DNA from: Polyangiaceae bacterium | GTDB lineage: Bacteria > Myxococcota_A > Polyangia > Polyangiales > Polyangiaceae | NCBI GenBank assembly: GCA_025937895.1 | Contig: JAICQL010000003.1 | Location: 1-64,000, forward strand | Direction of reading: 5' to 3' | Length of the DNA: 64,000 bases | Shown here: positions 15,441 to 52,941 of the stretch, in pieces | Numbering within the stretch: the first letter of the stretch is position 1 | Layout of the letters: every line of letters starts with the position of its first letter | Position numbers and translations under genes: made by a program | Notes under the pieces: generated by a model | Databases searched by the model: none | The model's input: only the letters and a program-made list of their open reading frames with translations | What the model was told of the DNA's origin: nothing

Positions 15441-15465
15441 AGCTGCGTCGCCGTGGAACGAGCGC

Positions 15466-15540
15466 AGCCCAGAACAGCGCAGCCTAGAGCATCGCAGCCT
15501 AGAGCATCGCAGCCTAGAGCATCGCAGCCTAAAACAGCGA
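15466..15540. repeat. 15-bp tandem array at the ruvB stop codon
   Basis: agcctagagcatcgc x3 perfect (15481-15525), degenerate copies on both sides; final copy contains the ruvB stop codon (15529-15531). Confidence 0.93.
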
Positions 15541-16596
15541 GCCCTGCTTCTCCTTGGCCTCGAACGGCATGCCGAGGTGCTCGTAGGCCTTGCGCGTGGC
15601 GATGCGCCCGCGCGGAGTGCGGCCCAGGTAGCCTTGCTGCAGGAGATAGGGCTCGTAGACGTCTTCGATGGTATCGCGCGGCTCCGCCAGCGCCGCCGCG
15701 AGCGTCTCCACCCCGACGGGGCCGCCCTGGTAGGTCTCGATCAGCATGCCGAGCAGTCGCCGGTCCATCTCGTCCAGGCCGCTCTCGTCCACGGCCAGGC
15801 GCTCGCAGGCATGGCGCACGATGCTGGCATCGATCACGCCGCGGCCCTCCACCTCTGCGAAGTCGCGCACCCGCCGGAGCAGGCGATTGGCGATGCGCGG
15901 CGTGCCCCGCGAGCGGCTGGCGAGCTCGCGCGCTCCCTGCCGCTCGCACGGGATGCCCATCAGTGAAGCGCTGCGCGCCACGATCTGCTCCAGGTCGTCG
16001 ACCGCGTAGAAATCGAGCCGCAAGGTCACGCCAAAGCGCTCATGCAGTGGCTTGGTGAGCAAGCCGGCGCGGGTGGTGGCGCCCACCAGGGTAAAGGGGC
16101 GCAGATCGACCGAGATGCTCTCGGCGAAGGCGCCTTCACCCGTCACCACGTCCACGCGAAACTCTTCGATGGCGGGATACAGGGCCTCCTCCACCGGCGC
16201 GCTCAGGCGGTGGATCTCGTCGATGAACAGCACATCCCCGCGCTCGAGGCGGGTCAGCTCGCCCGTCAGCGTGCCCTTGTGCTCGATGGCTGGCCCGCTG
16301 GTGACGTGCAGGTTGACGCCCATCTCGCGCGCGAGGATGTACGCCAGCGTGGTCTTGCCCAGCCCGGGCGGACCGCACAAGAGGATGTGATCGAGCGGCT
16401 CGCCACGCTGCTTGGCGGCCTGCACGTACACCTCCAGGTTCTTGCGGTGCTGCGGCTGGCCGATGAAGTCTGCCAGGCGCTGCGGGCGAAACAGACGATC
16501 GAAGCGCGCGTCGTCACCCGAGGAGTCCGCCGCCAGAGTTCTCGGCTCCGGCTCGGGAGCGGCGCTCTCGCTCCGGGGGGACCTGCGTGCGGCCAT
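15529..16596 (-). CDS. ruvB: Holliday junction branch migration helicase RuvB
   Basis: [37 protein letters not shown]. Confidence 0.97.
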
Positions 16597-25485: not shown

Positions 25486-25576
25486 GCCAGTGCTGCTCCG
25501 TCAGTGCCGCGCTCCGTCAGTGCCGCGCTCCGTCAGTGCCGTGCTCCGTCGGCGCTGCTCCCGTCAGTGCCACTCC
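25486..25576. repeat. 16-bp tandem array (gtcagtgccgcgctcc)
   Basis: Two perfect copies 25500-25531, one near-perfect 25532-25547, degenerate copies on both sides; between convergent glnB and a kinase gene. Confidence 0.88.
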
Positions 25577-40303: not shown

Positions 40304-42406
<2,103 letters not shown>

Positions 42407-44150: not shown

Positions 44151-44220
44151 GAGCAACGGAGCTCGGGTCAACGGAGCTCGGGTCAACGGAGCTCGGGTCA
44201 ACGGAGCGGGGTCAATGTAG
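44151..44220. repeat. 15-bp tandem array at the stop codon of the PglZ-domain gene
   Basis: gctcgggtcaacgga x3 (44161-44205) with degenerate ends; the end copy contains the stop codon (44212-44214). Confidence 0.9.
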
Positions 44221-47446: not shown

Positions 47447-49167
47447 TGATCGCCACTCGCTTCTGGATCGGTTTGCTCGGACTGACGCTCAGTGTGGCGG
47501 CGCTGGTCGCCTACCTTGCCGTGAGCATGCATGACCGCCTGGGCGTGCGCATGGCGGCAGAGGGCCTGTCCGCCGACAGCCGGGTCGTATCGTGGTACCT
47601 GAAGAACTCGGCGCGCGAGGGCGCAGCCCAGCTGATCCGCTTCGCAGGCAATGACAGCGTGGCGCGCGCTCTGGCCAGCGCCAACCGGGCAGAGCGGGGC
47701 GAGGTCGATGCGAGCACCCGCCGCCAGCTCAAGTCCACTCTCGCCAAGATCGCGCAAGAGCTGCCCAGGGACGAAGCGTTCGACGCCATCTTTGCCGTGT
47801 CTCAGAGCGGTGAGGTGGTGGCCAGCATCGGCTTCGATCAGGCGAGTGATCCCGATTTCGAGCTGGGCGGCTACCCAGTGGTCGCCGACGCGTTGCACGG
47901 CTACGTGCGCGACGACACCCTGGTCCTGGATCGGCTGTATCGCGTGATGGCCCGCCCCGTCGAGTTCGAGCTGGGCCAGCTGCCGGCCGGCGCCATCGTG
48001 GGGGCGCGCGTGGTGGACGATCGCTTTGCGGCCGAGCTGTCCGAGCGCACCGGCGCTGCGGTCGCGTTCTACAACGGCGGGCGGAGGATCGGGCTCGGTG
48101 CCCCCAGTACCTTTGATCGCTCAGGGCTCGATCAGATCGTCACGGACCTGCCCTCGCTGGAGAATGACGCGGACTATCGCGACAAGGGCCGCACCGACGT
48201 GCACCCGTTCCCGGATGGCCTGGCCGTGGTCTACGCACGCCTGCCGGGCGAGGCCTGGAAGCTCGGAGCTGGCTACGCGGTGGCTCGTCACGCGCCGCGC
48301 GTGCAGGGCATCGGTGGCGTGCTGAAGCAAGCCGACAGCAAGGACAAAGAGGCGGTGAGCGCGCTGGCGCTGCTGGCCATCGCGCTCGTCTCGATCGGAG
48401 TGGGCCTGGCGCTCTCCTTCGTCGAGTACACGCTGCCGCTGAAGGCGTTCAAGCAACAGGTCAAGGCCCTGTCCGCGGGCAAGGCCACGCAGCTCATCGT
48501 CGAACGGATGCGCGGCCCGTTCCGCCAGCTCGCGCTCGACCTCAACCTGGCCCTCGATCGCGCTCCGCGCTCCGCGCTGGGTGATGACGCACCGATAGCC
48601 GTCGGCTTCGACCAGGTGTTTGGCGATGCGCCCGCATCTTCCCCGCCCATGGCAGCATTTGGAGTGCCCGGATCCGTGCCGCCGGGCAGCTTCGCAGGGC
48701 TGCCGCCTGCCTCCACGGAGGTCAGCGCGCCGCAATACGGCCAGGTCAGCGCCGTGGGCTTTGACGCGGCCGCGGGCGCACGCGGCGCCCCTCCGCGGCG
48801 CCGCTCGCTCCAGCAGCCTATGGCTCAGGCGGAGCCCGCCTTTCCGGTGGCCGGTAGCGCCGCCGTCGCAATGGCTCAGCCCGCGGTTCAGGCCGAGCAC
48901 GCTCCCGCTCCAGCTCACCTGCCAGCGGACGCGGCCATCAATGGCAGCGATGTCGAGCCCGAGTGGATGCAGGTGTACAACGACTTCGTGCGCATCAAGC
49001 AAGACTGCGGCGAGGCGACCGAGGGCTTCACCTTTGAGCGTTTCAGCCAGGAATTGCGCAAGAATCGCGACAAGCTGCGGCGCGACCACGGCGTGCAGCG
49101 CGTACACTTCAGCGCCTACGTCAAGCAGGGCCGAGCCGCGCTGAAGGCCAAGCCCATCCGGGACTGA
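47446..49167 (+). CDS. MXAN_5187-like membrane protein with extracytoplasmic sensor-like domain
   Basis: N-terminal TM, Cache-like region, second TM, conserved C-terminal FVRIKQDCGEATEGFTFERFSQELRKNRDKL. Confidence 0.8.
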   Translation: MIATRFWIGLLGLTLSVAALVAYLAVSMHDRLGVRMAAEGLSADSRVVSWYLKNSAREGAAQLIRFAGNDSVARALASANRAERGEVDASTRRQLKSTLAKIAQELPRDEAFDAIFAVSQSGEVVASIGFDQASDPDFELGGYPVVADALHGYVRDDTLVLDRLYRVMARPVEFELGQLPAGAIVGARVVDDRFAAELSERTGAAVAFYNGGRRIGLGAPSTFDRSGLDQIVTDLPSLENDADYRDKGRTDVHPFPDGLAVVYARLPGEAWKLGAGYAVARHAPRVQGIGGVLKQADSKDKEAVSALALLAIALVSIGVGLALSFVEYTLPLKAFKQQVKALSAGKATQLIVERMRGPFRQLALDLNLALDRAPRSALGDDAPIAVGFDQVFGDAPASSPPMAAFGVPGSVPPGSFAGLPPASTEVSAPQYGQVSAVGFDAAAGARGAPPRRRSLQQPMAQAEPAFPVAGSAAVAMAQPAVQAEHAPAPAHLPADAAINGSDVEPEWMQVYNDFVRIKQDCGEATEGFTFERFSQELRKNRDKLRRDHGVQRVHFSAYVKQGRAALKAKPIRD

Positions 49168-49237
49168 GTCCATCCGGGACTGAGCCCATCCGGGACTGAG
49201 CCCATCCGGTACGGCACTGAGTCCATCCGGGACTGAG
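49153..49237. repeat. 16-bp tandem array starting in the last codons of the MXAN_5187-like gene
   Basis: (c/t)ccatccgggactgag x5, one copy carrying a 5-nt insertion; copy 1 = Pro-Ile-Arg-Asp-stop codons. Confidence 0.94.
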
Positions 49238-49337
49238 CCCGGCACGGCGAGCCAGCGGCGAGGCGCGCGGGCCTGGGGGCGAGCGGGTGAAATTCCCTTC
49301 GCGCGAGCGCGGGCCAGGTATTAGAAGCAAGCCCAGA

Positions 49338-50300
49338 ATGGCATCGCTGCACAAAGTCGTGATCATCGGTTCCGGCCCCGCCGGCCTCACCGCCGCAATC
49401 TATGCGGCACGGGCAAACCTCCAGCCGCTCTGCGTGGAGGGGTTCAACGCCGGAGGCCTGGTTCCTGGTGGCCAGCTGATGTTCACGACGGATGTCGAGA
49501 ACTATCCGGGCTTCCCCAAGGGGGTGACAGGCCAGGAGATGATGGAGCTGTTCCGGCAGCAGGCGGAGCACCAGGGCACGCGCTTCATCACTGCGGACGT
49601 GCAGCGCGTCGATCTCTCGGAGCGGCCCTTCAAGCTCTGGGTGGGTGAAGACGAGAATGAGCTGCATCTGGCCCAGAGTGTGATTATCGCCACCGGCGCG
49701 CGCGCCAACTACCTCGGCCTGCCCAGTGAAGACGCGCTGAAGAACCGTGGGGTGAGCGCGTGCGCGGTCTGTGACGGCGCGCTGTTTCGCAACAAGGATG
49801 TGGTGGTGGTGGGCGGCGGTGACACCGCGATGGAGGAGGCGAGCTACCTCGCTGGCCTGTGCAGTCACGTCACCTTGATTCATCGCCGCGACGAGTTCCG
49901 CGCGTCGCAGGCCATGCAGCGCCGCGTGCGGGAGAACCCGAAGATCCAGATCCTGACGAGCCACGTCGTGCAGGAAGTGATGGATCCCGCTCTGGGGCGA
50001 GTGACTGGCGTGCGAGTGCGCGATCTGAAAGCTGGCAGCGAGCGGCCGATCGAGTGCGCCGCGCTGTTCGTCGCGATCGGTCACACACCCATGGTCGACC
50101 TCTTCCGCGGGCAGCTGGAGACGCACCCCAATGGCTATCTGCGCGTGAAGCCGGGCAGCACTCACACGAGCGTGGAGGGCGTGTTCGCCGCGGGTGACGT
50201 GGCGGACTGGAACTATCGCCAGGCTGTGACGGCTGCGGGCACTGGCTGCATGGCAGCGCTCGACGCGGAGCGCTGGCTCGCCATTCACGGCTCGCACTGA
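49338..50300 (+). CDS. trxB: Thioredoxin reductase
   Basis: [47 protein letters not shown]; start 49338. Confidence 0.96.
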
Positions 50301-52028: not shown

Positions 52029-52185
52029 AGCCTAGCAGAGCACCGTCGCGGGCCAAACCGCCATCACGAGCGGCGTGGGGACATCAAACCATCGGGCGCG
52101 AGCCGCCCATCACCTGCGAGCGGTGCGCAGCGCCCATGGCGGTGCCTACCTGGCACGGCGTCCAGCACGGCAACACCGCACCAAC

Positions 52186-52275
52186 AACCCAGAGCTCAAC
52201 AACCCAGAGCTCAACAACCCAGAGCTCAACAACCCAGAGCTCAACAACCCAGAGCTCAACAACCCAGAGCTACAG
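52186..52275. repeat. 15-bp tandem array at the lexA stop codon
   Basis: aacccagagctcaac x5 perfect (52186-52260) + degenerate sixth copy containing the lexA stop (52270-52272). Confidence 0.96.
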
Positions 52276-52905
52276 CCGCCGGTAAACGCCGACGACGACG
52301 CCCAGGAGCATCGTGGGCCGGAAGTCGGACGCGCGCACCAGGATGGGAGCCATCTGGTCATTCGCCGGCTGGAAGCGCACGTAGTCCTTCTCCGGGTAGT
52401 AGTACTTCACCGTGGCCTCGTCGCCGATGAGCGCCACCACAATCTCGCCACGGTCCGCAGAAGCCTGCTTGCGCACGAAGATGTAGTCCCCGTTCAGGAT
52501 GCCCGCATTGATCATCGAGTCACCCTGGACTCGCAGACCGAACACGTCGCGGCCGCCACGCACCAGCATCCGATCGACACGCACGGTGTCCACGACGTTC
52601 TCCTCCGCCAGGAGCGGCAGGCCTGCCGCAACCCGTCCGAGAACTTGAACGTCGATCGCCGAATCATCCGCGCCAGCCACCGCCTCCGGCTCTTGACTGA
52701 CGAGCCGCAGCGCACGGCTCTTCATGTCTTCGCGACGCAGGTAACCTTTGCGCTCCAGCGCGCGCAGATGATCGTTGACTCCGTTTGTGGAACGGATGCC
52801 CATCGATTCGCCGATCTCGCGGAGGGTAGGTGGGTATCCCCGCTCTTCGATCGACTGGCGGATGAAATCGAGCGTTTGCGCCTGGCGCTTGGTGAGACCC
52901 TGCAT
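52270..52905 (-). CDS. lexA: LexA repressor
   Basis: [56 protein letters not shown]; start M4 (52905) preferred. Confidence 0.97.
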
Positions 52906-52912
52906 CCCGCCC

Positions 52913-52941
52913 ATCTTACTGAACGGGTGTTAGGAAGTCAA
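52913..52941 (-). promoter_or_regulatory. lexA promoter with LexA-box-like operator in the spacer
   Basis: Minus strand: TTGACT-17 bp-TAAGAT; spacer contains CTAACACCCGTTCAG. Confidence 0.65.

Follow-up and report, generated by a model that had tools for sequence, protein, structure and literature searches.

A 16-bp minisatellite very probably born by local duplication across the stop codon of an MXAN_5187-family gene in a Polyangiaceae genome

Introduction

Mycobacterial interspersed repetitive units (MIRUs), which are larger than the repeat unit described here, make up a family scattered between genes, with ends that overlap the stop and start codons of the neighbouring genes. In Beggiatoaceae and Cyanobacteria, TAACTGA direct repeats form intergenic tandem arrays with stops in all three frames; a single 7-bp sequence recurs there in 169 dispersed sets, and in 13 cases the repeats overlap the upstream gene's stop codon (PMC4679880). 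For myxobacteria, our search of open-licence papers found no description of arrays seeded by a gene terminus. Here we analyse such an array in a window of 64,000 nucleotides (the whole stretch of DNA studied) from a Polyangiaceae genome, and conclude that it is very probably a lineage-specific minisatellite (VNTR-type array) that arose when a segment spanning a stop codon was tandemly duplicated on the spot, with no function needed to account for it.

Results and discussion

The array occupies positions 49153-49237 and, read directly from the sequence, consists of a 16-bp unit present five times head to tail (Table 1), a copy number that rests on a fragmented assembly (8.57 Mb in 425 contigs, listed as 92% complete with 7.7% contamination). 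TRF assigns it a period of 16, 5.3 copies and a score of 121, against a top score of 70 in Markov shuffles of the window (n=10), and it qualifies as a minisatellite, defined as a head-to-tail run of at least three near-identical copies with a unit length of roughly 10-60 bp. Copy 1 contains the final 12 coding bases and the stop of an MXAN_5187-family gene. An earlier note, made from the sequence of this stretch, had given the same coordinates, had read copy 1 as the C-terminal Pro-Ile-Arg-Asp-stop of an MXAN_5187-like gene and had listed the five TGA positions, with frames for the first three, all of it correctly. Its claim that the period of 16 places TGA in all three frames holds as arithmetic for copies 1-3, to which the simple progression is confined because the 5 bases inserted in copy 4 put the later TGAs out of step. 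The longer copy 4 (CCGGTACGGCAC, 49201-49221) resembles the sequence directly 3' of the array (CCCGGCACGGC, 49238-49253); the likeness may hint at the origin of copy 4, or may be due to chance.

The host gene is assigned by its match to the MXAN_5187 family model NF041620 (260 bits, cut-off 200, residues 4-572) and to the C-terminal domain model NF041621 (85.6 bits, cut-off 30); a match to a CHASE4-like region is weak and under the gathering score. In several relatives, too, trxB lies 3' of the gene, separated from it by 0 to 286 nt or, in one case, by 975 nt. Three reverse-strand open reading frames that run through the array (48121-49245, 49116-50297 and 49121-49390) overlap confident genes of the opposite strand and were rejected as artefacts of G+C-rich DNA.

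Table 1. Features at the array locus (window coordinates)
Feature	Position	Strand	Remarks
MXAN_5187-family gene, 573 aa	47446..49167	+	NCBIfam NF041620 and NF041621 above cut-off
Array copy 1	49153..49168	+	CCCATCCGGGACTGAG; Pro-Ile-Arg-Asp-stop + G; TGA at 49165 (frame 0); ancestral copy on comparison with orthologues
Array copy 2	49169..49184	+	TCCATCCGGGACTGAG; TGA at 49181 (frame +1)
Array copy 3	49185..49200	+	CCCATCCGGGACTGAG; TGA at 49197 (frame +2)
Array copy 4	49201..49221	+	CCCATCCGGTACGGCACTGAG; 21 bp, 5-base insertion; TGA at 49218 (frame +2)
Array copy 5	49222..49237	+	TCCATCCGGGACTGAG; TGA at 49234 (frame 0)
Rest of intergenic region before trxB, 100 bp	49238..49337	.	No sigma-70-like promoter or intrinsic terminator match
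trxB (thioredoxin-disulfide reductase)	49338..50300	+	Intact; TIGR01292 378 bits, cut-off 343

Presence or absence of the array was compared between species, with one genome per species, in relatives that are mostly metagenome-assembled Polyangiaceae together with other Myxococcota. The MXAN_5187-family protein is encoded in 57 of the 59 relatives. At 68 distinct loci the end of its gene can be read, and most of these termini have the form KA[SNTK]P[IVL][KR]x-stop. An array at the stop is present in the window and at none of the 67 other distinct orthologue loci. When 13 orthologues are aligned Pro570 is invariant, and the protein ends coincide or lie one residue apart. In the genome of the same genus (G001) the gene is present, with trxB 286 nt downstream, and its terminus is single-copy. 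A degenerate two-unit pattern run on 108 family genomes in all recovered the window's own array, which served as the positive control, and matched in no other genome searched, the one of the same genus included. Since the conserved C-terminus is single-copy in orthologues and the array is absent from relatives, copy 1 is shown to be ancestral and the array to be derived in this lineage. Capture by the gene of a stop from a pre-existing array is ruled out, as its C-terminus aligns to its end in relatives.

This polarity bears on what the earlier note had called a gene-terminus duplication seen directly. The duplication is an inference rather than an observation, albeit a strong one that the orthologues now polarise. 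The note had also proposed that the orthologous locus be compared to learn whether the first copy alone is ancestral, and had named conservation of the array in distant relatives as the result that would point to a selected element; the comparison indicates that only copy 1 is old, and among the genomes searched the array is found in this one alone.

The exact 16-bp unit was found nowhere in the 8.57 Mb outside this array. Elsewhere there are just single units with 1-2 mismatches, about as many as a reversed-pattern control yields. The unit is not dispersed, the property by which local origin was judged, and the array lacks the mark of dispersed families of the TAACTGA, MIRU or REP type, namely a unit present at many loci.

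Further arrays are seen in the window. The minus-strand gene 52270-52914 has a TAG stop from which six identical copies of the 15-bp CAACAACCCAGAGCT extend (52182-52271; TRF 100% match), at 44154-44215 a 15-bp unit repeated 4.2 times begins at the TGA stop of a minus-strand gene ending at 44212, and at 15456-15543 a 15/30-bp array covers the stop of the minus-strand gene 15529-16596. A second 16-bp array, of the unrelated unit GCTCCGTCAGTGCCGC (4.9 copies), is intergenic at 25495-25571, and a long array of 15-bp units, CAGCCCTGGTCCTGG (7.4 copies) followed by CAGGTCTCGGCGGGT (3.9 copies), lies inside the end of the predicted gene 40355-42406, at 42181-42349.

In the origin we propose, replication slippage would most likely have copied in situ a 16-bp stretch running from the fourth-last codon of the MXAN_5187-family gene to the base after its stop. 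Amplification to five copies would have followed, one of them gaining 5 extra bases. The protein is unchanged because the ribosome stops in copy 1, and stop-spanning arrays in general would be tolerated, and presumably neutral, because duplications across the stop leave the protein unaltered. That stops fall in three frames follows passively from the period (16 = 1 mod 3), and nothing suggests that the three-frame TGA was selected. The locus is in this respect a clean, polarised example of a non-coding minisatellite born from coding sequence with the protein unharmed, although the finding alone changes nothing that is known of gene function.

Three explanations that invoke selection or insertion were weighed against this local origin. 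A selected 3' element between the MXAN_5187-family gene and trxB, whether terminator, 3'-end stabiliser or repeated protein-binding site, would suit an array flanked by a co-oriented gene pair that is also found side by side in several relatives, and the array RNA can indeed fold (-54.6 kcal/mol, z = -1.9). This folding is unremarkable, slightly better than that of shuffles, of which 10 of 200 fold equally well, and a G+C-rich tandem repeat may achieve as much without function. Positions 49100-49400 contain no match to an intrinsic terminator (a G+C-rich stem followed by a U run) or a sigma-70-like promoter, the array has no Rfam match, and the relatives retain the gene pair, 0 to 286 nt apart, with the array missing from every one examined; we consider such an element improbable. 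A selected translational backstop, in which TGA in all three frames guards against readthrough and frameshift, is a very remote prospect. The array does provide a stop in each frame within 69 nt of the real one, and its collapse to one copy would leave frame +2 stop-free over the roughly 160 nt examined downstream. Yet in-frame readthrough would pass copies 2-4 and end only at TGA 49234, 69 nt on, whereas without the array an in-frame stop lies 54 nt downstream, so that the array makes frame 0 slightly worse; it is not conserved, and in this genome the period of many stop-spanning arrays is divisible by 3 (15, 18, 21, 30), so that their stop recurs in one frame. Insertion at the gene end of a member of a dispersed repeat family has a precedent in interspersed repeats that overlap ORF ends, such as those of Beggiatoaceae, but is hardly credible here given a unit confined to this array, a copy 1 that is conserved coding sequence, and other stop-spanning arrays whose units, the stop and its common context apart, are unrelated.

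Those other arrays raise the question of how often gene ends are duplicated in this genome, which is unusually rich in short tandem arrays: TRF finds 401 in a sample of 1.61 Mb, about 249 per Mb, against 105, 160 and 115 per Mb at the same settings in samples of about 0.2 Mb each from three relatives (G001, G020 and G021, respectively). With 1183 genes in this sample predicted by a home-made codon-usage caller, approximate for genes and robust for stop positions, and a simple null model of uniform unit seeding in the gap before duplication, predicted stops are spanned (by an overlap of at least 3 bases) by about 36 arrays where 21.4 are expected, and starts are overlapped by 6 against 7.3 expected, which is no excess. 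In co-oriented gene pairs there are 13 arrays at stops against 5.0 expected and 4 at starts against 5.0. Many of the stop-spanning arrays have a like anatomy, with the last codons, TGA and a few bases repeated, each with a unit of its own, and gene-end arrays with unrelated units include examples of 13 bp (5.7 copies), 16 bp (4.1 copies) and 14 bp (4.4 copies). TGAGC, which occurs in stop-spanning units, was rejected as a shared element, as it is the commonest stop context (316 of 968); TGA makes up 79% of stops in the genome, and arrays that span no stop show no clear excess of it (26 against 21.6).

The excess of stop-spanning arrays over random seeding means that something beyond blind placement is at work, and these counts at stops and starts, in the whole sample and in co-oriented pairs, are what a lineage bias towards tandem duplication at gene 3' ends would produce, for instance if termination of transcription or translation perturbed replication. 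Such a bias would be the cause behind local duplication, not an alternative to it. We nevertheless judge it unlikely: the excess is modest, falling to 7 against 5.0, which is not significant, in the held-out 0.38 Mb by itself and to 4 against 1.7 for co-oriented stops at a stricter threshold (an overlap of 6 bases, with 2.9 copies or more), and the edges of the arrays scatter between about -20 and +40 nt relative to the stop, without peaking there. Arrays also become sparse just before the next start, as expected if selection clears promoter and ribosome-binding regions. The spread of edges fits a picture in which duplications arise anywhere and those close to promoters and ribosome-binding sites are lost to selection; such purging around starts could by itself account for the excess at stops. 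The broader proposal, that gene 3' ends are hotspots for array birth in this Polyangiaceae lineage, with two hundred or so terminus-seeded minisatellites per genome by extrapolation, we regard as doubtful. Terminus-seeded arrays in this genome could serve as strain-typing markers, and could help to test at which sites tandem duplications arise or survive in a high-GC genome.

Comparison with known repeats

Local duplication across the stop codon places the array among bacterial minisatellites and VNTR loci, with which it has in common short, near-identical head-to-tail units that are local, lineage-specific and apparently expanded by slippage. It differs from bacterial minisatellites in that its first copy is a coding gene end, which makes its birth point readable, and from VNTR loci in being known from one genome assembly rather than from copy-number variants. 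MIRUs are dispersed, whereas the unit here belongs to a single locus. The closest described case is that of the Beggiatoaceae TAACTGA repeats, which share with this array both the stops in three frames and the overlap with an ORF end; there the repeated sequence is a dispersed 7-mer, while here it is a unique 16-bp unit derived from the gene's own end.
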